From Hydractinia symbiolongicarpus (taxonomy: Eukaryota; Cnidaria; Hydrozoa; Anthoathecata; Hydractiniidae): a DNA stretch of 64,000 nucleotides. Every line of letters begins with the position of its first letter. The stretch's first letter is position 1. Shown here in pieces: positions 3,506 to 39,977 of the stretch. The DNA lies in contig NC_079888.1 in NCBI RefSeq assembly GCF_029227915.1, positions 17,276,001 through 17,340,000 on the forward strand. Direction: 5' to 3'. The position numbers and the translations under genes were made by a program. The notes under the pieces were generated by a model that saw only the letters and a program-made list of their open reading frames with translations, was not told the origin of the DNA and did not search any database.

Positions 3506-3682
3506 TGAAATAAATTAAATCCATAATTTTAATCATCAGCCTCACTATAATATAATTAAAAGGGTGTAGCTTTCTTTATTAGTTTAGTTGATACGGCCAC
3601 GGATCAACAAAATTGTTGCGCAACTGCCCTGCAAAAATTAGCCAATCAGAAAGTAGCAGTTGCATTCCTACGGTAGGTTAGT

Positions 3683-3766
3683 CCTGTCTCTCTTTTCAGC
3701 GATAGCGCGCTAAAAAAAGCAGGGTTAAAAAAGCAGGACAGCGCGAGAGCAGAAAAGAGAGACAGG
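3683..3766. repeat. 84-bp fold-back (inverted repeat)
   Basis: A 15-base arm, CCTGTCTCTCTTTTC (3683-3697), is repeated exactly in reverse complement at 3752-3766 around a GC-rich centre. It lies directly at the point where recognisable reverse-transcriptase coding begins, so it may be a small insertion or part of the rearrangement that truncated the retrotransposon. It is followed by a third partial CCTGTC. Confidence 0.6.
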
Positions 3767-3778
3767 TATCCTGTCTAT

Positions 3779-5275
3779 CATCACATAGAAATTGCTCCAG
3801 AGCATCAAAAATATTTAGGATTTTCTTGGGTAACAAATGGCGAAAGAAGGTATTTTGTTTTTACAGTCCTACCGTTTGGTCTCTCTTTTGCCCCCTTTAT
3901 TTTCACAAAAACAATGCGAGTCCTCGTAAAACACTGGCGAGAACATGCTATAGAAGTTGCATGTTTTATTGATGACGGCGCTGGCACAAGCAATACCTAT
4001 GTATCGACTCTGAGGGCGTCAAACTTCGTCCGAGACTCGCTTAAGAAATCTGGGTTTGTCGCAAACAACGACAAATCTCTGTGGAGTCCCACTCAAAACA
4101 TGACATGGCTCGGCATTAATCTAGATCTGAAGAAAAAACTTTTTTCTATACCTTCCCAGCGATTAATTTCTACTCTTTCGAGTTTACAATTCATTCTTGA
4201 TTCCCTATCGTACACGTCAGCACGAAAATTAGCAAAATTTTGCGGAAAAATCATATCCATGAAAGTTGTTATAGGCAATTTGGCCCAACTGAAAATTAGA
4301 CGAGTTTATTATCTTATTGAATCGCGAATATCATGGGACTCCCGAATGAACATGTCACACGCTTCAGAAGCTGTGAAAGAACTGTTCTTTTGGAAGAACA
4401 ATCTGCTAAAACACACTGAGAGACCAATGACACGGGTAAATACTCCTTGGTTAATCGTTTGTTCTGATGCGAGCGATACAGGGCTGGGTGCACACACGTG
4501 GCACAAGAATAGAATGCATATTTCTATTAAGAATTTCACACTAACGGAAAGCCTAATGCACTCCACGTGGAGAGAGCTATACGCTATACAATATTCGCTA
4601 CAATCATTAAAATCAGTTTTATGCAACAAAACAGTACTTTGGAAGACAGATAATTACGCGAGCCATTGTATAATAAAAAGAGGCAGCTCAAAGGAAAACT
4701 TACAGATATTGGCAGAAAATATTTTTGATATTTGTAAGAAACAAAAAATAGATTTAAATGCCGAATGGGTCCCAAGAAACCAAATTCAATACGCTGATAA
4801 ATTAAGTCGTTATACGGACACGGACAATTGGGAAATCACCAAAAGCTTTTTCGAATACCTAAACAGGCTCTGGGGTCCATTCACCGTAGATAGGTTTGCT
4901 AATGACGAAAACAAAAAGGTGGGCAGGTTCAACTCAAAATATTATTGTCCGGAAACTGAATGCGTAAACGCCTTTAATACCTCGTGGGAAAACGAAAATA
5001 ATTTACTCGTGCCCCCGATTCAATTTATATCAAAGGTTTTAAAACACATGCAGACCTGTAAAGCTTCGGGCACACTGGTGGCCCCATACTGGCCTTCGGC
5101 AGCGTTTTGGCCATTTTTAACTGATTCAACAGGGGACTTCCAAAAATTTATTAAAAACTTCAGGATCTTTGACAATCCCAATTTATGCGTTACTCAAGGA
5201 GAGTGCAAAAAATCCGCCATAGGTTCAAAGCATTTTAAAAGCAAAATAATAGCTTTCAAACTGCAATTTACATAA
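3779..5275 (+). CDS. Reverse transcriptase-RNase H of Ngaro/DIRS-type element, N-terminally truncated
   Basis: The frame is open from before 3779 and enters homology at HHIEIAPEHQKYLGFSW. It continues with TVLPFGLSFAPFIFTK and the catalytic palm motif FIDDG (usual YLDD, so two of the three Asp are visible; the first, in the missing D-x-K-SGYHH block, is lost). RNase H follows: IVCSDASDTGLGA (first Asp), STWRELYAI (Glu), WKTDNYAS (Asp) and QYADKLSRYTD (final Asp region). The in-frame ATG at 3914 lies inside the RT domain and is not the native start. There are no stops up to 5275, so the surviving part is well preserved. The recombinase gene starts 46 bases downstream, as expected for one retrotransposon transcript. 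Confidence 0.85.
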   Translation, partial: HHIEIAPEHQKYLGFSWVTNGERRYFVFTVLPFGLSFAPFIFTKTMRVLVKHWREHAIEVACFIDDGAGTSNTYVSTLRASNFVRDSLKKSGFVANNDKSLWSPTQNMTWLGINLDLKKKLFSIPSQRLISTLSSLQFILDSLSYTSARKLAKFCGKIISMKVVIGNLAQLKIRRVYYLIESRISWDSRMNMSHASEAVKELFFWKNNLLKHTERPMTRVNTPWLIVCSDASDTGLGAHTWHKNRMHISIKNFTLTESLMHSTWRELYAIQYSLQSLKSVLCNKTVLWKTDNYASHCIIKRGSSKENLQILAENIFDICKKQKIDLNAEWVPRNQIQYADKLSRYTDTDNWEITKSFFEYLNRLWGPFTVDRFANDENKKVGRFNSKYYCPETECVNAFNTSWENENNLLVPPIQFISKVLKHMQTCKASGTLVAPYWPSAAFWPFLTDSTGDFQKFIKNFRIFDNPNLCVTQGECKKSAIGSKHFKSKIIAFKLQFT

Positions 5276-5320
5276 ACCGAATCCACAGGGACAGCGACGG
5301 TGTCGTCACTGGACTAAGAC

Positions 5321-6382
5321 ATGCAGTCACTGGACAAACAAAAACTCTTAAAATCAATAGGCAATGTTTTTCACATTTTAGAACTCTTTGCAAGTCATTT
5401 TACGCAACATTTGGAAAACGAAACTTTGAGGCATTTAGCAGAAGATCTACCAGAATATATCTTAAATTCCAGGGCGAATAACACGATAAAAACGTACTAT
5501 TATTCTTTTAATTCATGGAATACATGGTGTCAAAAATATTCTGTATCAAAATTACCAGCTCCACCGCTAACAGTTGCGTTGTACATACTTAACCTAACCC
5601 AAATGAACAATTCTTATCCTAAAATCGAAATCGCATTGTACGCTATCCAGTATTTTCACAATTTGACAGGCTACAATAACCCATGCGACCACACTTTACC
5701 AAAAAATATGCTCGAAGCCGCTAAACGCCTACTACAACATCAAACTCGCAAGAAAGCCATAATCACGGTTGAACATTTGCACGCATTACATAAACAACTT
5801 GTTAAAAGCGAAGCTGTTAACCTTTACAAACTTAGAACTTTTAATATCTTTCTCTTGGGATTCTGTGGCTTTCTTAGGTTTTCGGAAATTAGTAATCTGA
5901 AAAGATGTGACGTCAATTACAAAAATAGCTTCATGAAACTGTTCATAGCGAAAAGCAAAACAGATATCTACAGAGAAGGACACTGGGTTTACATCGGCGC
6001 TTGCGGAAATGGGATCTGCCCAGTATATAATTTAACTGAGTATATGAAGTATGTACCTGCTAAGCCTGATTCCTATCTGTTTAGAGCGGTCACAGTTACA
6101 TCAAACAACAAATTCGGAAGTTTTAAAAAGATGAATCGCCCAATCAGCTACACAACAACAAGAGAAAATGCACTCGATGCACTGGCATCAATCGGATTGG
6201 ATAGGACAAGATTCGGACTCCACAGCCTACGTGCTGGAGCAGCAACAGCAGCGGCAAATGCAGACGTCCCAGACCGTCTTTTTAAACGACATGGTAGATG
6301 GCGTTCGGAGACAGCCAAAGATGGTTATGTGGAGGACGACGCAGAGCATTTACTATATGTTACAAGGAATCTAGGCCTTTGA
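5321..6382 (+). CDS. Tyrosine recombinase of Ngaro/DIRS-type element, intact
   Basis: 353 codons without interruption, a normal length for a DIRS-class YR. An N-terminal SAM-like core-binding half (about residues 30-150, NNTIKTYYYSFNSWNTWC) precedes the catalytic domain. The catalytic set is visible: Arg in GFCGFLRFSEI, HSLRAGAATAAA (H-x-x-R), HGRWRS (His/Trp position) and Tyr in KDGYVED. It would integrate a circular DNA intermediate made by the upstream RT. Of the two coding regions here this is the complete one. Confidence 0.88.
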   Translation: MQSLDKQKLLKSIGNVFHILELFASHFTQHLENETLRHLAEDLPEYILNSRANNTIKTYYYSFNSWNTWCQKYSVSKLPAPPLTVALYILNLTQMNNSYPKIEIALYAIQYFHNLTGYNNPCDHTLPKNMLEAAKRLLQHQTRKKAIITVEHLHALHKQLVKSEAVNLYKLRTFNIFLLGFCGFLRFSEISNLKRCDVNYKNSFMKLFIAKSKTDIYREGHWVYIGACGNGICPVYNLTEYMKYVPAKPDSYLFRAVTVTSNNKFGSFKKMNRPISYTTTRENALDALASIGLDRTRFGLHSLRAGAATAAANADVPDRLFKRHGRWRSETAKDGYVEDDAEHLLYVTRNLGL

Positions 6383-16600: not shown

Positions 16601-17600
16601 GAAAAAAACATTTATTAAAAAAATATAATAATTTTTTTTCAACTAAAAAGAAAAAAAAATGCGAAAAAAAAAATGTTTTCGTATTTTTTATATTATTTAT
16701 TTTTATTTTAATATCGAAAACGTTTTTTTCTTGGAAAAAAGTTTTTTTGTTTACTTTTTAGGTTTTTTTAATTTTGTCCCCTCAGGCGCGCCATATAATA
16801 CCTTAAGGGAAGAAATTATTTGCGGAAGAAATTTGTGCAAAAATTATTTTTGAGGATGAGTGACCCAATAATAGCATATTTCGCGGAATAAGTTTTTGCG
16901 GATACCGACCTCAACAGAGATATTGCGGAATTTATTTTTGCAGATGACCAAAATTAAGGTATAAGGATAAGGCGTGGTGTATAAACATGCACATACCTTT
17001 ATTACCACATGTACACCAATGATCCTCTTCACGGCATATCGCACATTCCCACACACCCAATGGAACTGTGTTTGAGGTTAAGCCCACACATGTCAGATGG
17101 TACCACTTAATCCGACAAGTGGAATTTCCGCACAATATGGATTCTTGTTCATCAGCATCATCAAATAGGCAGAAACAATAAATGCCATTTTGGTCGCCAT
17201 TTTGGTCACCATTAAGCTCTTCACCCTCTCCATCGATGCATCGATCTTCATCTCTCCTAGTACAGATATATGACGAAATTAAATACCCGCAAAGCACATA
17301 CGGTTTTGTAAAACAAATCAAAAACATGTTGCCATACATCGTAAAATTTTTTTACACATGCAAATAAATATAGTAAAAAGGGATTTTATGTTGCTAGAAA
17401 AAAAAAGCAAAAACTAATAACAAATATGTCAACCTACCTGATCTGAGTAAACTTCTTTATATCATTATAGAATGTTTTAATCATGTCCAGTTTCTTGTAA
17501 AATGTACGTCTAAGTGCCACATAATTTTTTCTGATAAATTTTTGGCTCAGCATAAAATATATCATCCGAAACCTTTCGATACACAACTCAAATAACCTCA
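10650..17600 (-). CDS. PHD-finger protein, 3' exons, with a transposon in one intron
   Basis: Reading right to left: an exon ending at 17438 (donor CAG|GTAGGT) encodes a helical segment (ERFRMIYFMLSQKF). It joins exon 17256-16997, which carries a C4HC3 PHD finger (YCFCL...CGNSTC...WYHLTC...WECAIC). The donor AAAG|GTATGT at 16996 joins acceptor TTACAG at 10925, giving a second PHD finger assembled across the junction (CTCGNK + ESYGEMTGCSRYEAC...WFHLKC...WYCDC). A third, partial finger (QYCICYRS...VKCANRSC) ends near 10671. All three joins keep frame. The last intron is 6.07 kb only because a 5.8-kb transposon sits in it. PHD fingers usually read histone H3 tails; the partner here is unknown. 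Confidence 0.6.
11626..13679 (+). pseudogene. HECT-like E3 ubiquitin ligase gene (G2E3-type) of the transposon
   Basis: 11626-12246 encodes a Lys-rich then Glu-rich N-terminal region (residues 1-206). After a frame change, 12360-12640 encodes a HECT N-lobe: PEVTFENGEEGMGADGPKRE, then HKVPVYNEFHLDSELYLYAG and KVIAHSIL. 12920-13130 carries EQLREGFETISLISVLKNN. 13500-13679 gives the C-lobe end (PFPDADTFCRYFRF), where a shift near 13590 is needed to read on into HDAYNDFKKAIDATLRLQGQGFERL. Several stops and shifts make this a pseudogene, although some breaks could be unrecognised introns. HECT ligases pass ubiquitin through a C-lobe Cys; a Cys is present, offset by one residue from the usual ADTC pattern. 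Confidence 0.65.
14188..16493 (-). pseudogene. rve-type DDE integrase with N-terminal HTH, IS3EU-like, broken
   Basis: The start at 16493 leads to an HTH (GRPKYEVPKEQ, QWKDIAQMLGIS, residues about 105-145) and then IVRELLLILPNCGERM. The frame is interrupted by the TTAA element (15151-15928) and resumes with RERLRQSIMRVDALSRVMRR. A clean 73-bp intron (GTAAGT at 15030, TTTTAG at 14958) rebuilds SLWHMDGHH. The DDE core follows: HMDGHHNLIRWR, GCIDGYSRL, RIRTDHGTEN, QRMERLWRDL. Two single-base shifts, near 14735 (before KPVITG) and 14558 (one T lost in GTTTTGCC), break it before PRINRACEDFVKQWNNHP. The acidic C-terminus ends at 14188. Confidence 0.8.
15151..15928. mobile_element. TTAA-flanked non-autonomous element nested in the integrase gene
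   Basis: TTAA at 15151-15154 is followed by CCCTATTCGGTCCGGGG; the reverse complement CCCCGGACCGAATAGGG ends at TTAA 15925-15928. Long G and C runs and GGCGGATTCCGCC-type palindromes sit just inside both ends, and a hairpin CCCGAAAATC/GATTTTCGGG lies at 15518-15548. No ORF of note. TTAA duplication suggests mobilisation by a piggyBac or Kolobok transposase. Removing the element with one TTAA leaves the host integrase frame continuous. Confidence 0.85.
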
Positions 17601-26333: not shown

Positions 26334-29097
26334 TTAACCCCTTTCCGCATAGCGTATTATATATGATACAGTCTGTGTTTTGTTTATCTCTGGTCACACT
26401 ATCTAATTTTAGGCTAAATAAACTTGATATACGGGTTCTCTGGATAGTTCTTAGTAAGTTAAACCAAGATTTATATAAAATTTCATAATTCCCGTTTCTG
26501 AATACTTTCATATGTTTACAAGATGGCGTCCGGCAGCAAATCTCAAGGTCCATGTAAGTAAACATGTTTAAAATCATATTTAATTTGATGCTACGAAGCT
26601 GAATAAATTCATACAGTTTATTTGTAGGTTGTTTATGTCTAGGAACAAGTTTTTTACAAGTTTTTCTCTATAATTTCTTCATAAACTCCAGATTTTAGAC
26701 TGTATCATATATGATACACTATGCAAAAAAAGAATATTAGCTAGCTATTTGCCTAAAAACGTGATTTCTTTTATTATCTTTATTTGATGCCCATACACAC
26801 AAATAGCCTTTATAGTGAGTATATTTGATGTGTTTAGCATAGTAATTCATTTCTAGATAATTATTTTTATTTTTAGCAATTGGCGTAAGATCATTTTATG
26901 GGCGAAAACCTGTCGGCGTTAACCGAGTACAACCATTTGTAAATGTTAGGGGTATTCCTGAACCAAACGAATCTTCTGATGACGATCTTGATTCAGACAG
27001 CGAAAATGAATATTACAATGCTGCAAACCAATAAGATTTAATAATTGAATCAACGTCATCAGAATATGATGACTCATCAAGTGACAGCGATGACAATTTG
27101 GCACTGAGTTCGATTGCGGCTACCTCGAAAAGAACAGCGACGGATGCAAAAAAAACAACTGCTGCTGCAAAAAAAAAGATACCGATTAATTGGAAGAAAA
27201 AGAATCTTGAAGTAAAGGAGAACTATGAGTTTAAAGTTGACTACCAAAATGAACTAGATGATGATTTGGAGGGTCTTGGATCAGAGCTTTCGTATTTTTT
27301 CTACCTTTTCCCTAAAGATTTGATCGAAGATATTGCACGCCAAACTGTTTTATATTCAGTTCAATCACGTCCAGAAAAACCTGTTGATATCACAGAAGGT
27401 GACATTCAGAAATTTATTGCGTGTGTTTTATATATGTCAATCGTCAAGTTACCGAGTACTCGAGATTACTGGTCGTCCTCGATCGGTATTCCCCAAGTAG
27501 CAAAAGTGATGACAGTCAACCGCTTTGAAGAAATAAAACGTTTTATTCATTTTAGTGATAATGCTACTGCTGATAAAACTGACAAAATAAATAAAATTCG
27601 CCCACTGGTTAACAAATTAAATGAGCAACTTCGAACAATACCTATTGAAGAAAGTTTAGCTGTTGACGAACAGATTGTCCCCTTCAAAGGGCGGCATTCC
27701 ATCAAACAATATAACCCTAAAAAACCACATAAATGGGGCTTCAAAGTTTTCGTTTTGAGTGGCGTTTCAGGCTTTAGTTATAATTTTGAAGTTTTTACTG
27801 GTGGAGCAGATAATGTATGTGCCCAAAATGAGCCTGATCTTGGTGCAAGCAGTAACGTTGTCGTACGATTAGCACGAGTTATTCCTGAAAACTGTAATTA
27901 CAAACTTTATGTTGATAATTGGTTCAATAGTATTCCACTAAACGTGTATATGTATACAAAAGGTATACAAATGGTAGGGACAGTTCGTCGTAACCGAATA
28001 GGAAAATGTCCAGTATCGTCAGATAAAGAAATAAAAAAGAAAGGTCGCGGAACTCATGAAGAACGTGTCGCAACAATAGATGATGTTGATGTCTGCGTTG
28101 TCTCGTGGTTTGATAATAAGGTGGTAAAACAAACATATCGAGACACCGTGCCCAAACCTTGTTACGATTTATAACAAACATATGGGAGGCGTAGACTTTT
28201 TAGATTCGCTTTTAGGGTATTACCGCAACAAAATCTGGTCGAAAAAGTGGTATCACAGAATTTTCTTCCACTTAATTGATATGATGGTAGTCAATGCTTG
28301 GATTTTATGGAGAAAACAAGATCCAAATGTGCCTTTAGTAAAGTTCAAACTAGCTGTTGCTGATTTATTGTGCCATTACCAGAAAACTCCAAATAGAAAG
28401 CGTGGTCGACCATCAATTGATAATGGCGTTGACCGTCTGGGACCTAAAATACCAATGCCCCATCAGGAGGTTCGTACCGATAAATTTGCTCACTGGCCTG
28501 TATTCAATGATTCTTGCACTCGCTGCAAATACCAGAAATGCTCTACATTAACCTATGTATGTTGTGAGAAATGTAATGTCGCTTTATGTTTAAATAAGGA
28601 CAGGAATTGTTTTAAGAAATTCCATACATGATTTAAACAGAGTGCTTGAGTGGAGTAACATTTACTAATTATAATATTTATACTGTATAATATATGTTTT
28701 GATCTTCGATTGACATAACTTTTCCATTTATTTTTACCCATTTTCCACCTTGTGCTGCCAACTGGCCACCAGCAGGTGGTGTTCACCAATTCTGACATTT
28801 GGTCCTTTTAGGAAAAAAAATTGAAATGATAAAATTTTCAATTCATATACGAGTTTGAGGCAATTTTTGGCCTTTTTTAGCTTTTAAAACACTTTTTTCC
28901 CAAAAATTTTTTTGGTGTTTTAATAACTTTTTGTGCATAATGTATCATATATGATACAGTCTTAAAAAATTGATTATGTCAGCAAATTTCTTTTTTTTTG
29001 CAAATTATGATTTAAATATGTTTTTAGTTGGTTAAAATAAATGAAATAACATAGGTTTCATAAAAAAAAAAAAAAAAATCATGCAAAAAGGGGTTAA
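26334..29097 (+). mobile_element. piggyBac DNA transposon
   Basis: TTAA target duplications at 26334-26337 and 29094-29097 flank ~16-bp inverted ends (CCCCTTTCCGCAT on the left, CCCCTTTTTGCAT as reverse complement on the right). The motif ATATGATACA, mostly in the palindrome TGTATCATATATGATACA, recurs subterminally near 26352, 26702 and 28942, the kind of repeat transposases bind. One transposase gene occupies the middle. A length of 2.76 kb is normal for piggyBac. 28800-29090 is non-coding and A/T-rich. Confidence 0.9.
26523..28631 (+). pseudogene. piggyBac transposase, one stop and one frameshift
   Basis: A plausible first exon 26523-26553 (MASGSKSQGP) splices (CAT|GTAAGT, ATTTTTAG|C) to 26877. 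An acidic N-terminus with an in-frame TAA at 27032-27034 then leads into the open frame from 27098. The DDE Asp residues are visible in ESLAVDEQIVPFKGR, YKLYVDNWFNSIPL and, after a frameshift near 28160, MGGVDFLDSLLGYYRNK. The C-terminal Cys-rich domain is present (CTRCKYQKCS...CCEKCNVALCL...CFKKFH). Only two lesions in about 590 codons suggest a fairly young copy. Normal activity would be cut-and-paste at TTAA. Confidence 0.88.
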
Positions 29098-33306: not shown

Positions 33307-33323
33307 TTAAAATAAGGACGTGG

Positions 33324-33520
33324 ATATTCTGCCGGTACCGGCAGAATAAGTAGGGGTGTTTATTCTGCCGGCAGTAACCAACTACCGGCAGAATAAAGAG
33401 AGATAGTCTGCCGGCAGTAACTACCGGCAGAATAAAGGGGGCTATTAATTCTGCCGGCAGTAATCAACTACCGGCAGAATAAAGAGAGATATTAGTCTGC
33501 CGGCAGTAATAACGGAAATC
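33324..33520. repeat. Subterminal palindrome array of the MULE
   Basis: ATTCTGCCGGTACCGGCAGAAT (two 10-base-plus arms) is followed by three ~45-48-bp units. Each runs TCTGCCGGCAGTAA, a short spacer, then ACTACCGGCAGAATAAAG, i.e. each unit can fold on itself; a final half unit ends near 33510. The spacers between units are GAGAGATAG or GGGGGCTATTAA. Probably transposase-binding sites; only two such motifs are seen at the other end. Confidence 0.8.
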
Positions 33521-33822
33521 ACGATAAATACACCAAAAAGGTATTATTTTGCAAAAAGTAAATATAGTACATAATCGTGGCAAAAATACAAAAAAACTCA
33601 AAGCAAACAAAACTCCGGTTTTATTCCACGACATGACGAGACAAAAAAAACGTGTAAAGTGTACCAAACACTATTAAAAACTGTACTATTAAAATTGCAG
33701 TATATAAAGATAAAGATCTCCATATACCAAACTTTCTGAATTTTTACAAAATGAAAGTTCTTGAACCAACACAAGTAAGTTAATTAGAACAAAAATAAAA
33801 ATACATCAGTCGTGTTACCGGT

Positions 33823-36800
33823 TCATGACTTATACGCATTGACGAGTCGCATAACAATATGTTCTAATCTAGCACAGGTAGTTTTACCAATGTCAAAGCT
33901 CTCCTTATAACCGTGATGGACAAAATGTAAAATTTTTTCCTTTGGTTCAGTTTCATCATTGGCATATAACTTATACTCCTTTTCGAATTTCGGAAATGTG
34001 TTGAATAATTCTTCCAGCGCGTGGGCGTACTTTTTCCCTTCGTACTTACAAATCGCAAGTAATTTATTGTTATCAGGATCACTTGACTCTTGCACAATAT
34101 CCATCAAACTTCCGTCATGTGCCATTTTTCTTAACAGCAGCCGCCAATGACAAAACCACCTTTCTAGTTCTTTTTTTTCACGTTGTTCTAAGAAGCAGAA
34201 GTGACTAATAATAAAAAATTAAAGCGAGTTAAGTGGCAAAAAAATATGATGCCGGCTATATACCTTCTTCAATTGCTTTTTCCATCTCCTCTTTTCCTAA
34301 TGGAATATGGTAACATTATTTTGAGAATGTAATGACAAAATAATTATAGATTTCTGTATTATAAACTTTTGTAAAAAAACTTACGTTTTTTCAAAAATTT
34401 CTCACAACTAAAGCAAATATTTCCATCTGTGCTATTAAAACAAATGTCGTGGTATCTGACTAAGCACCTTGTACAAGAGCGTGGTTCGACCAACTCTGCT
34501 TTACAATTTCCACACAAACTTTCTTTCCGTGATTCAACTGCATCTTTTATGTATTTGCACAGCTTACCATAAGTTTCTTTTAGGCAAAATCTCCTAATTA
34601 GTTTTATATCGAATGATTCGTCACTTATGCAATTTGGAAGATCCTGTTCGACCATCCTTCGAAACGCATCTTCGTCTACACTTTCGTTTTCATTTATACA
34701 GTCAATAGCAAATTCGGGGCAAAACAAAACAGACAAAATCATTTTAGCCTTTCCTTCTTCGTTCATCTTGTTAAAGTCATAAGTTTGCAAATCACCTAAA
34801 ATATAAAGCAGATGGAAATTTTTTGTGACATTCAAGTATAAAAAGAAAGAAACTGTTAATAAACGCAATAGATTAGACTAGTCGATGGCCCGTGGAAGAA
34901 TCCACGGGTCCGCCCATCCTTTTTATACCACTTAAGCGCGTCTCGCTACTTACGGTACGGTACCATTTTGCGTGACAGACAGACGCACACGGGTATTATA
35001 ATATAGATATTTACTTGAATTATGGTGTTCCTCAGATAGTGTGCCTGTATCTATTATCGAAGAAGCGCAAGATTTTTCTGAAACGCCAGCATCCTAAAAG
35101 ATTTTGGTAGGTATTAAGAAGTTAGTTGCTTCAAAATTCATGAAAGGTAATAATTAAAAATAAAGAAACGACAAGGTGACATTTATGACATATGACTCAC
35201 AGGAATAGTTGTCAGATAATTGATTTTCTTAATCTGCATGCCACCAATTCGATTGCTATTTAGTTTCGACAAAATCCAAGATATGTAATTGTGTGTGTAC
35301 GTCATACTGCAAGTCAAAAGGTGATAAAACCATTTGCGTATTTGTATCATGTGACCAGGATAAAAATCGAATTCGGCGTCCTTGACTATGTATAAGAAGT
35401 ACATTACCGCAAATATGCCACAATCCACTCCGTTTCTCTGCCTTGGTAACTTTCGCGAAAAAGAAAACTCAAATCTCTCTGATGTGATTATGCACCAGTC
35501 TGGTATGGATTCCGGTATTGGCGTTTCCAAATTGTTATTGAGAATATTATACCAAATGATGTGGTTTATAACATTGATATCTTGCTTGAATTTCGTGTCT
35601 GGAACATAACCATACATAGGGTCCAGATAAAGAATATTCTTTTGCACACAATCAATCAAAACCAAGGACCAGTGGTTGGAGTAAAAAGAAGCAGACACGA
35701 TTAAATCGATATCTTCACAGTCACCAGGCAAAACTGCCTCAAGTGTTGAATCTCTTTTAACGCGTTCGAAAAAGGAAGAAGGCAAAATGAAAATATTTTT
35801 CTCTTGAAATACTGTTGATGATATCAGGATAAATAAGCCATCAATAACTTCCCCTAACACCATAGTTCGTGGACTAAGTGACTGTAAGTCGTCAAAGTAC
35901 AACTTAAATGGAGAGCTAGACGGGGTTAAAACCGTTTTTGACGACATTTGTTGTTTACAAACTGTTTCAAAAGCCATGGACCAAACATTGCGATTCGCCT
36001 CAATAGAAATTGGAAGAGGTTTTGGTACATTGATATTGTTTCGAACAGGTACTAAGGAAAATATAAATACGAGAAGATTGGAATAAACATATTCTAATTC
36101 ATATATAGTTAAATATTTTTAATGTCAAAACGTATTTGTAGAATTGACAAAAAAATTACCTGAATTCCCACATTTCCTAGTCAAACACGTCTTGCACACC
36201 CAGTTAACCATTTTTGGTTTTTGTTTTAAACCAATGCATGTCAGGTGGTACCAATTTAAACACACTTCGCACCCTATCACGTGACCGTCTGCTTCATTTT
36301 TGCATCGTGGGCATGTCCAGGTTCCCTTTTTGTCTTTGACAATCAAAAGTCTCTGTAGTTTGGCAAATGCGGTTGAAGTAAAGTACTTGTAAATCAATTG
36401 CGTATCCACATTTTCATCTAGAAGTGCCATAGAGAGTGAACATGCTTTCGGAAGATCATTTTCACAAACTGTAGTGCCGTTTTTGACAATTTCTTCACCT
36501 TTTTGTTCTCCGAAGATCCATGACATGCGACATTGCTGCTCCCGAACAGGTAGTAATTTGAAAGGAGTTGGACGTTTGTCAAGTGCCTTTTTCCTGCGTT
36601 TGTATGTTAAACCAATTACGTTAAAATCCACTCCCTTTGGGCGACCTCTTCTCTTAATTTTAACCGGTAGTTTGAGATCAAGATTCGACTCTAAATTTAA
36701 ATTATTTAAAAAAAATCTACGTCCCACAGGCAGATGAATTCATTTAACACAAAAATAAATATAAAAATCCGAGAGGTATCAGGAAAGAACATCTGACATA

Positions 36801-39800
36801 CTTTCTAATACACCAACGTCTTTTGATGCCATGTCATCCGCCTCCGCTAATTCCACTGTTTCAACTTCACTTGGAGGTTCATCACTTTCTTTTTGTTTTT
36901 CCGTTTGTTCATAATCTTGACCACATGTAGATGCCGCTGTTTCATTTTGATTAGAATAGTCATTGGGATATGCAACTTCAACGCCATCTTAAAGAATAAA
37001 AGGAAATTATTAATCCGTGCATTTTTCCAGCCTATGCAGTTTATCCTTTTGCGCCATATTTTAGAAAAATAAATATTAAAAATAATAAGAACCTCTTGTT
37101 CCCAGCAATTGTACATCAACGTCATTGTCCCAATACCATACAAGTTTCTTTAGAACATCCATCTTTCCCAAAAACCGTTTCGTACCTTCACTCGACACAA
37201 TTGTCTTTATTTCTTCGCAGACCCGATGCACATTGCGGTAACGCTCGTTAAGATTCAATACCTTCTTTTCGCCTTTTCTTAAGGATACATGAACTGGTGT
37301 GACTGGAGATGGGTGCTCTGATATAAACATCCGATGTGTTTTTCTATGAAAATCATTAGTCCACCGGTCAGCGCATAAACTTTCGTCAAAAAGAGGTAAA
37401 CCTTCAAGTTCTCGTACAACAAATATGTGCCGACAGGGTAACAGCATCGAGGTTGTAAAACTGCATGTGCACGAATTTGTGTTGACATTTAAATGCATTT
37501 CACCACGAACTTTGAAAACTGTCCCCTCTTTATGAACATTTCCGACATTTTTCATTTCTTTTAATTGGTTCAGCACAAAATTTAAGGCGTAACTTGTTAA
37601 CAAATTTGAATATTGGTATTGAGGGGTTGAAATATTAAATGGTATTACTTTGCGCTTGAGTAATGTTGATGCAGCTTTGTGATCTCGTTCGTTCCTTAAG
37701 GAGTACAAAACCGTGAAAAAACCGTCAATAAAGTCTTCTAACGGACTGTACAACTTAATGACAGATTTGAGTTTGCCATTTAAGCTCTCAAGTCTATTGT
37801 TCGTCGTATTTAGGAAGCTATTGACATTAAGGACATCACCTAAAACCCACTCATTCTTTATATCGTGCCAATTCTCTGTAAAGTAGCTTTGAACCATTTC
37901 TGGAGCAGCCTTCATAAATAGATCGTATTGTTCACGATATTCACTTTCCGTTTTGCTGTAACACATTTTCTGAAAAAGTTCTTTTAATACCACTTGTTGG
38001 CATTCTCGTAAATTAAATGATTGGTTAGAAATTTCACGCTTAAAACTACGTAGTGTGTGAAATAAACAAATCAATAGTTTACAGGTGGGGAAAATTTCTT
38101 TAACCACCTTTCTCAATGTCAGATCTTTGTCGGCCATTACGATGCGAGGAATTAACCCATTATTATTTTCTTTAAAAGTGTTTAAAAGCCAAGTAATTGA
38201 CTCCTCATTTTCAGATACAAGAAGCCCCACAGCAGCAACCTCGGTTCCACCCATGGAATCTTCAACCACCAACAAATAAACAGGAATTTTTAGTTCTGTC
38301 AACTTATATGTAGCATCAATGAAAAATATTTCAGCATATGCTGCCGTTACAATTTTCATGAAATCATCTTGAAAGAAAATCCCAATCAAATTTTTTTCTT
38401 CATCAGCATGAATGCTAACAGTGCAACCTACAGTAGATTTACAAATTGTTTACAAAGTGAAAATTTTATTGCAATCATGTTTACAGTATCAATTGGTAAG
38501 TCAAGAGTTAAACCTCTGTATTTTTAGAAATTCTCTTTCAAAATAGAAGCATGAAGGCTAAAAAAACCCAAAAGAGAAACAAAGAAGACAATAACTGCCC
38601 CATAATACAGAGTTGATAAATAAGTAAAACCAACCGTATTTATTTGTTAAAATATCTACAACTGAGTTTAGGTCGTTACGAGTTTTTTCTCTTTTGTTTT
38701 CTGCAGCGATGTTGGAAATATCTCGGAGTGTTACAACTTTCCCACATTCTCTCGAGAGTTCCTGCTGCAATAACTTTTTGTTGACATTCATCGAGAGCAG
38801 GTACTTAGCCTTTTCCTTGCTTTGGTCTGTGAGACGCCTTTGTTTTGGCAAGTGGTTGAACAACTTCTATGAAAAATATACCATTTAAATGTATTACATT
38901 ATAACATTAACATTAAAAATCAAATTTATATTAAAAAGATTACTTTTAATTTTATTATGTATATACAGATAATAAATGAAGGCAGCAGGAATTGAACCCG
39001 CAACTGCAAGGCAAGAGCCATGCCGTTTTTCCGTTAAACTATACCTTCGAACATAACAATTTTTAAGTTGACTTTGTACATTATTTTTACGTCTTAAGTT
39101 ATATATGACTGAACACTTTATTATTGTTACTATTATATTATTATTATTATATTATTAGGTTTCAATATTTTATTGTATTTATTATATAGTAGTCATTTAT
39201 ATGTAATTGTCAGTGTACAGCAATGTTTAATCTCTGAAATACGCCACAACAGGGTGGCGAAACGTCATAAAGGTAAATGATGTTTATCATAAAAATTGTA
39301 CCACTGTGTGTAGCTAGCAGTTACCTGGTTGAGTTCATGATTATGTTTATCAACTATATCTTTTACTTCTAAAGTTTGGCCATCTGCAGATGCCCTAATC
39401 TTGATACTAAATGGGCAGTTATTCTTCAGTGTTCTGCAATAAAGAAAAAAGAACAGTAGCTAGCTAGGCTAGGTGAACACAGAGGAACAGAGCTTGCTAA
39501 ACTAATACTATGCAGAAATTATTTTCAATAAAAAGCTAGAAATAAATAACTTATTGATATCTACTTACTGCGAGGAGCGTTTTCCTGAACTTTCTGAGTG
39601 AAATTTACGACCACCATGAACACAAGACAGTTTTAGCTCATAATATTTTAACTCAGGATTTAGTGTTTTCTTTACTCTCCCTTGAGAAGCTTTTATTGTC
39701 CGAGAATCTCTAATCCATAAATCTACGAAGTGTGATGCTTTAAAACGTTCTAATTTATTACATAAATCCTTATAGCTCGCAAACTTTTCACCAACAGTAA

Positions 39801-39825
39801 ATGCACCATCAACATCATCCGCCAT
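33823..39825 (-). CDS. MULE transposase fused to SWIM, PHD, Ulp1/SENP protease and second PHD, 11 exons, intact
   Basis: Exons: 39825-39569, 39433-39325, 38866-38635, 38427-37093, 36987-36802, 36690-36160, 36051-35201, 35093-35015, 34795-34385, 34296-34264, 34187-33823. All introns are GT-AG and the sum is 4389 nt, exactly 1462 codons plus stop. Domains by my count: FAR1-like N-terminus (CVHGGRKF, KNNCPFSIKI, HNHELNQ, 1-125); MULE DDE with D237 (FIDATYK), D299/D301 (VMADKDLT), E413 (NNRLESLNGK); SWIM C519-x-C521...C531-x-H533; KRRGRPKG at 719-726; PHD about 829-875; Ulp1 with H1010 (NHWSL), D1027 (YLDP), Q1088, C1094 (GVDCG); second PHD about 1285-1324; charged coil-like C-terminus. All catalytic residues are present. 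The protein should cut and paste the element; the protease suggests SUMO or related-modifier removal, which is inferred. Confidence 0.85.
38981..39051 (-). tRNA. tRNA-like sequence (tRNA pseudogene or SINE head) in a MULE intron
   Basis: On the minus strand, 71 bases with acceptor arms GAAGGTA/TGCCTTC, a GTTT/AAAC D-stem, a T-arm GCGGG-TTCAATT-CCTGC, and matches to the pol III A box (TAGTTTAACGG) and B box (GGTTCAATTCC). The anticodon arm does not fold convincingly, so the isotype is unclear. It lies in the intron between exons 2 and 3 of the transposase gene, on the same strand. No T-run terminator follows directly. Confidence 0.5.
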
Positions 39826-39977
39826 TACGATTATGTCTGAATGATGTTAAGTACGCGATTTGGCGGGAAATTTACTGCCGGCAGAATAATTTTCTTCCTT
39901 AACCAGCCGGTACCGTCCGACTAACGCGTGTTACTATTTCCGCCGGTACCGGCAGAATATACACTCCGTTAAAATAA

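Follow-up and report, generated by a model that had tools for sequence, protein, structure and literature searches.

A young Mutator-like element of Hydractinia symbiolongicarpus whose single gene appears to combine a ZSWIM3-type transposase with a PHD-Ulp1-PHD module

The element and its gene

The window analysed here, a 64,000-nucleotide stretch of the Hydractinia symbiolongicarpus genome (contig NC_079888.1, positions 17,276,001 to 17,340,000), contains a 6,653-bp Mutator-like element (MULE) with its core at 33316-39968 and a single gene on the minus strand, in which the exons of a transposase are followed by those of two PHD units and a Ulp1-type protease. MULEs move by cut-and-paste transposition, and their target-site duplications are 8-11 bp long, usually 9 bp. 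The boundaries were computed directly: the core is flanked on both sides by TTAAAATAA, the perfect 9-bp duplication that an earlier note on this DNA had reported, and two 9-mers of the window were identical by chance in 10 of 200,000 cases. The similar inverted termini of that note were recovered as well, the terminal 31 bp of one end matching those of the other in inverted orientation at 26 of 31 positions, against a maximum of 17 in 2,000 random window pairs. A MULE-type DDE transposase, a 9-bp duplication and terminal inverted repeats, by which a MULE is recognised, are thus all present. The left end bears an array of TTCTGCCGGCAG / TACCGGCAGAATA repeats, which are possible binding sites of the transposase. 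The rebuilt gene model consists of 11 exons separated by ten GT-AG introns and amounts to 4,389 nt, or 1,463 codons with the stop and no internal stop, reproducing exactly the uninterrupted eleven-exon model proposed earlier; two of its splice donors, GTTGGT and GTTCTT, are weak.

33307..33315, no strand: left copy of the target-site duplication TTAAAATAA
33316..33346, plus: left terminal inverted repeat, 31 bp, 26/31 against the right end
33325..33510, plus: subterminal array of TTCTGCCGGCAG / TACCGGCAGAATA repeats, five 18-bp units and two 70-bp units
33823..34187, minus: exon 11, C-terminal tail of ~120 aa, common to integrase-bearing loci
34264..34296, minus: exon 10
34385..34795, minus: exon 9, second helical+PHD unit (PHD2; C4HC3 ligands, without the cage tryptophans)
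35015..35093, minus: exon 8, linker
35201..36051, minus: exon 7, Ulp1/SENP-type protease, Peptidase_C48 (H1010, D1027, Q1088, C1094)
36160..36690, minus: exon 6, RGRPKG motif, helical segment and TAF3-like PHD1
36802..36987, minus: exon 5, acidic linker
37093..38427, minus: exon 4, RNase H-like DDE transposase core and SWIM-type motif
38635..38866, minus: exon 3
39325..39433, minus: exon 2, second half of the FAR1/ZSWIM3_N DNA-binding domain
39569..39825, minus: exon 1, start codon and ZSWIM3_N/FAR1-type domain
39938..39968, minus: right terminal inverted repeat
39969..39977, no strand: right copy of the target-site duplication TTAAAATAA

Domains and catalytic residues

The order of parts along the protein is most likely FAR1-type domain, DDE transposase, SWIM-type finger, RGRPKG motif, helical segment with PHD1, Ulp1, helical segment with PHD2, and a conserved tail. 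In a Pfam scan of the eight stop-to-stop frames of the gene, ZSWIM3_N (4.7e-12), ZSWIM1-3_RNaseH-like (PF21056, 2.3e-28), MULE (PF10551, 7.6e-18), PHD for the first finger (PF00628, 1.2e-7) and Peptidase_C48 (PF02902, 2.4e-15) were all above cut-off. FAR1 (0.0011) and SWIM (0.038) were below it, the second PHD reached no Pfam cut-off, and none of the families was above cut-off in the frames of exons 3, 9 and 11. No rve match was found in the eight frames, where MULE was found instead.

The residues expected at the active and metal-binding sites were all located, as the earlier note had claimed, with motif positions assigned by inspection and those of Ulp1 through an alignment with SENP1 (E 2.8e-8). 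The DDE residues of the transposase are D237, D299 and E413; the SWIM-type CxC...CxH motif is formed by C519, C521, C531 and H533 and aligns with the same motif in relatives; the His-Asp-Gln-Cys set of Ulp1 is H1010, D1027, Q1088 and C1094. A SWIM finger is common, though not universal, in MULEs. The ligands of the two PHD fingers span residues 833-875 (PHD1) and 1288-1324 (PHD2), and all eight C4HC3 ligands are present in PHD2.

Copies in the genome

A DNA search of the 480.9-Mb assembly (76 contigs) gave at least 46 matches, with the best 40 of 1,498 candidates scored, and a search with exon 4 listed 51. Twenty loci around the best DNA matches were analysed, near-identical places on C5, C2 and C14 being among those left out. 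Both ends could be assigned in 13 of the 20, and a perfect 9-bp duplication surrounds ten of these, one with a single mismatch being L009 and the two without any being L011 and L027, whose right ends do not match. In six loci a single end could be assigned, and L028, whose right side is cut off, corresponds to the element of the window itself. Near-full copies lie on other chromosomes at 99.7% (L009), 99.1% (L011) and 99.6% (L012) identity. L012 retains an open 4,383-nt coding frame with no stop, as the window does; coding length differences of 3 and 9 nt from the window occur in L009 and L012, L009 has one stop in its coding frame, and the coding sequence of L011 lacks 14, 13 and 11 nt in three deletions. 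Internal deletions are found in L010, L013, L014, L016, L017 and L018, the longest per copy ranging from 73 to 4,222 bases. L015 is an older partial copy (91-95%), and the loci L019-L027, at 72-91% in the pieces matched, are either diverged or incomplete.

ZSWIM-type genes have been domesticated in vertebrates, and the locus could in principle be such a host gene with leftover transposon-like ends. We regard this as very improbable, as the near-identical copies on several chromosomes have separate 9-bp duplications and many are internally deleted.

The exon-4 search also led to L030 (G000:C11:24290600-24297900), a copy of about 3 kb from which PHD-Ulp1-PHD is missing; it retains the left 191 bp and exons 1-4, of which exon 4 is open, between perfect 9-bp duplications, TTCTAGAAA. 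It is a young derivative and a natural transposase-only element, which suggests that an element devoid of the module moved, perhaps in trans through full copies, unless the module was lost after insertion.

The Ulp1 exon (exon 7) gave 10 matches at 8 places with all 20 candidates scored, every one of them inside element copies, and exon 9 matched element copies and diverged derivatives, other loci being much weaker. Given where these matches lie, the PHD-Ulp1 module moves with the element. Copies with both ends assigned share their end points, apart from L011 and L027, and no place of the Ulp1 exon points to a separate host gene, these being the two contrary outcomes that the earlier note had named. 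Its description of an intact MULE of the ZSWIM3-type clade, with the PHD-Ulp1-PHD exons travelling inside the element, is upheld.

Smaller sequences were noticed in two introns. Intron 2 contains, at 38977-39048, a tRNA-like sequence without a proper anticodon (ARAGORN), perhaps an old SINE, which is also present in the near-full copies, where the introns align free of gaps. Among the matches listed (best 40 of 1,498 candidates), the segment 34872-35000 of intron 8 recurs 19 more times (82-95%) with no other part of the element, and by this pattern it is a separate short repeat.

One protein or two

The splice frame, together with relatives that overlap one another along the chain, suggests a single continuous protein. 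The relatives comprise 15 proteins matched by the transposase region, all of them scanned with Pfam, and three more, P0016, P0017 and P0018 (18 in total). A PHD match follows the MULE domain in 10 of the 15 at E <= 0.01, three of these being above the Pfam cut-off, and the order MULE-RGRPKG-PHD is likewise found in P0017, with its PHD above cut-off, and in P0018, with its PHD just below. P0016, a 699-aa open reading frame (ORF) on a 3,273-bp metagenome contig, unites PHD and Ulp1 with another PHD-like unit and the tail; it is 38% identical to the Hydractinia protein over 89% of the query and keeps the H, D, Q and C of Ulp1. Because of the MULE-RGRPKG-PHD proteins on one side and P0016 on the other, exon 6 is seen joined to the transposase in one set of relatives and to Ulp1 in the other.

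The same element could instead make two proteins by splicing or initiation, a transposase from exons 1-4 or 1-6 and a separate PHD-Ulp1-PHD protein. L030 keeps just exons 1-4 with exon 4 open, several relatives stop soon after PHD1, two splice donors are weak, and P0016 is an ORF with no transposase, which may, however, be a fragment owing to its contig. MULE and Peptidase_C48 occur together in none of the 18 protein matches, and the Pfam scan found no Peptidase_C48 in any of the 15 transposase-region matches. Against two products, ten introns preserve one open frame across 1,463 codons, and exon 6, with its transposase-type RGRPKG-PHD unit, directly precedes Ulp1. On balance we hold the two-protein arrangement to be rather unlikely.

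Two PHD units around the protease

A profile of the PHD1 unit, from RGRPKG to the end of PHD1, was built from seven proteins, with the Hydractinia protein and P0016 left out. It scored the exon-9 unit at 44.0 bits and the second unit of P0016 at 51.3 bits, where the best of 1,000 shuffles preserving Cys and His reached 15.7 and 23.4, respectively. As these scores are far above the shuffles and all eight PHD2 ligands are present, Ulp1, judged by sequence, sits between two copies of one helical+PHD unit. A structure model of exon 9 from ten aligned rows has a mean pLDDT of 80.4, with the helical residues 11-90 above 85 and the finger part at 53-69. In a tree, the second units of the Hydractinia protein and P0016 group together (98/93), both on long branches, a grouping that suggests an earlier date for the duplication than for the split between these two proteins.

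TAF3 is a reader of H3K4me3, and its PHD is the closest solved relative of PHD1 in the PDB (2e-9), followed by BPTF and ING-type fingers. The methyl-lysine cage of TAF3 is formed by D877, M882, W868 and W891 (PMC12238850), with which A, V, W and W of PHD1 align, and reading of H3K4me3 by PHD1 is predicted. PHD2 has neither cage tryptophan.

A PHD unit and tail common to integrase-bearing loci

The exon-6 search of the genome, in which the best 150 of 606 candidates were scored, gave at least 69 matches; 9 fall within element copies and 60 outside them, and two of the latter places, L032 and L033, were analysed. In both, an rve integrase (2.5e-10 and 7.6e-9) is followed by other frames, a helical+PHD unit and a tail; PF00628 is just under cut-off in L032 (4.6e-5) and reaches 5.6e-6 in L033. 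The PHD-unit profile derived from MULE proteins scores the units of L032 and L033 at 84 and 104 bits, and a profile of their two tails scores exon 11 at 42.4 bits and the tail of P0016 at 33.9 bits, with 8.9 and 8.6 as the best of 1,000 shuffles. These matches of PHD unit and tail establish that C-terminal parts are common to the MULE and the integrase-bearing loci. The exon-9 protein is 35% identical to the L033-type unit over 114 residues (6-119), at six near-identical places and with E of about 1e-9, a higher identity than the 28% of exon 6 in its own genome search.

The integrase-bearing loci look like Ginger1-like elements; their ends were sought and not found. Their frames between integrase and PHD (L033:1283-3454 and L032:1427-2852) have a cysteine-rich stretch (Pfam TCR at 0.021 in L033, below cut-off) and, by eye, a common NTCxLDTW region that may belong to a further protease. 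In another MULE family of the genome, L034, an RGRPKG-like RGKPSG motif and a PHD unit lie about 5 kb past the transposase.

The PHD-protease-PHD-tail end may be part of a cassette of mobile elements that passed from one superfamily of transposases to another, and the shared unit and tail suggest that accessory modules, and not only transposases, have a history of their own. A stronger form of this proposal, which we put forward as tentative and doubtful, is that a reader-protease-reader cassette, made up of a ubiquitin-like protease with a helical+PHD unit on either side and the tail, is independently mobile and has been exchanged between MULE and Ginger1-like elements, giving each a machine that would find H3K4me3 and remove SUMO or ubiquitin in order to insert and to resist silencing.

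The sharing also bears on whether PHD-Ulp1 might be passively captured cargo with no role in transposition. MULEs tend to pick up fragments of host genes (PMC6446971), and copies lacking all or part of the module (L010, L013, L016, L017, L018 and L030) keep 9-bp duplications. Cargo status is nevertheless improbable in our view: no separate gene with the Ulp1 exon was found in the genome, a relative of 38% identity preserves the catalytic residues along with the two-unit layout, and a PHD unit and tail held in common with integrase-bearing loci point to an element-borne module.

Relation to known systems

The earlier note had suggested that such a protein may be undescribed in an animal, which is too strong, since Bao, Kapitonov and Jurka (2010) already reported Ulp1 encoded in hydra and lancelet Mutator elements (PMC2836005). 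The legend of their Figure 1e announces an alignment of Ulp1 and PHD from Ginger1 and Mutator transposases, and Ginger1-9_HM is listed with 'Ulp1, PHD' (PMC2836005). Among the open-licence PubMed Central papers searched, this was the only one in which Mutator, Ulp1, Hydra and transposase occur together. In Table 1 of Dupeyron et al. (2019), Rehavkus is the only entry with a PHD finger and MuDR-6_HM has OTU, with no mention of Ulp1 in the main text (PMC6446971), and the main text of an arthropod survey mentions neither Ulp1 nor PHD (PMC13359780). As far as the open-licence PubMed Central papers searched can show, the combination is known in outline, and the two-unit sandwich, the common tail and the intact young copies are added here.

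The closest systems are the Ulp1 Mutators of Hydra magnipapillata, also a hydrozoan, and Branchiostoma, in which an animal Mutator transposase is likewise combined with Ulp1; they are set apart by description only, as the accessible text of PMC2836005 does not mention two PHD units around Ulp1 or a common tail. Ginger1, above all Ginger1-9_HM, likewise has a transposase with C-terminal Ulp1 and PHD (PMC2836005), and the PHD unit and tail of the Hydractinia element are homologous to those of the rve-integrase loci in the same genome, but in Ginger1 the integrase is of Gypsy type and the duplications are 4 bp long (CCGG/CCGT), in place of a MULE transposase and 9-bp duplications. The plant Kaonashi MULEs share MULE with Peptidase_C48 and differ in their lineage and in that PHD units go unmentioned in the text available (PMC6117577). 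MULE-PHD proteins of wasps and sea star (P0001, P0003, P0005, P0014, P0017) and of metagenome contigs (P0006, P0010, P0018 and others) have transposase and then PHD in one protein; motifs of SWIM and RGRPKG type occur in most of them, and a ZSWIM3_N domain also in P0001 and P0003, whereas Ulp1, a second PHD unit and the tail are absent from them as deposited. Rehavkus resembles the Hydractinia element in having a PHD finger and 9-bp duplications (PMC6446971, Table 1); its PHD is described as lying within the transposase domain, a minisatellite lies near its end, and Ulp1 is unmentioned in the text available (PMC6446971).

Proposed mechanism

Taken together, we consider it probable, with some reserve, that this is an autonomous young animal MULE of ZSWIM3 type, whose gene most likely yields one 1,462-aa protein that would act as a chromatin-targeted transposase-protease. 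The N-terminal FAR1-type domain would bind TTCTGCCGG-type repeats at the element ends, the DDE core would cut and paste with a 9-bp stagger, and PHD1 would dock the complex on active chromatin of the H3K4me3 type. The tethered Ulp1 could then remove SUMO, or a modifier related to it, from nearby proteins of chromatin, repair or silencing, or else from the transposase, which would favour insertion and escape from SUMO-dependent silencing, or help repair; PHD2 and the tail probably have structural or protein-contact roles. Chromatin targeting and local deSUMOylation are inferred from the domains. A role of transposon-borne Ulp1/OTU proteases in transposition, through ubiquitin or SUMO pathways, was proposed by Bao et al. 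in 2010 (PMC2836005), and a young, apparently intact open-frame element in a laboratory stem-cell model animal makes that proposal directly testable. The fused finger of histone-reader type predicts insertion near active promoters.

Several results weigh against this chromatin-targeted transposase-protease. In addition to the lack of MULE with Peptidase_C48 in any one protein match, among proteins of ~800-2,560 aa, none matched residues 760-1462 at E <= 0.01, and three other MULE families of the same genome, L029, L031 and L034, gave no Ulp1 match at that threshold. Because the young L030 has a perfect 9-bp duplication and no PHD-Ulp1-PHD, the protease may be dispensable in cis for movement of the element. 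Coding insertions or deletions that are not multiples of 3 are present in L011, L013, L014, L017 and L018. Only two of the four TAF3 cage residues, both tryptophans, are matched in PHD1, a single-sequence AlphaFold model of the Ulp1 exon is poor (mean pLDDT 39.9), and SUMO is considered an improbable substrate of the plant Kaonashi proteins (PMC6117577).

Other frames in the window

Three further places in the window were noticed by eye. Reverse-transcriptase-like and tyrosine-recombinase-like frames stand in tandem at 3677-6382, in a DIRS/Ngaro-like arrangement; another PHD-finger-like frame lies on the minus strand at 16932-17351; and two long frames on the plus strand at 27035-28631 resemble piggyBac transposase.

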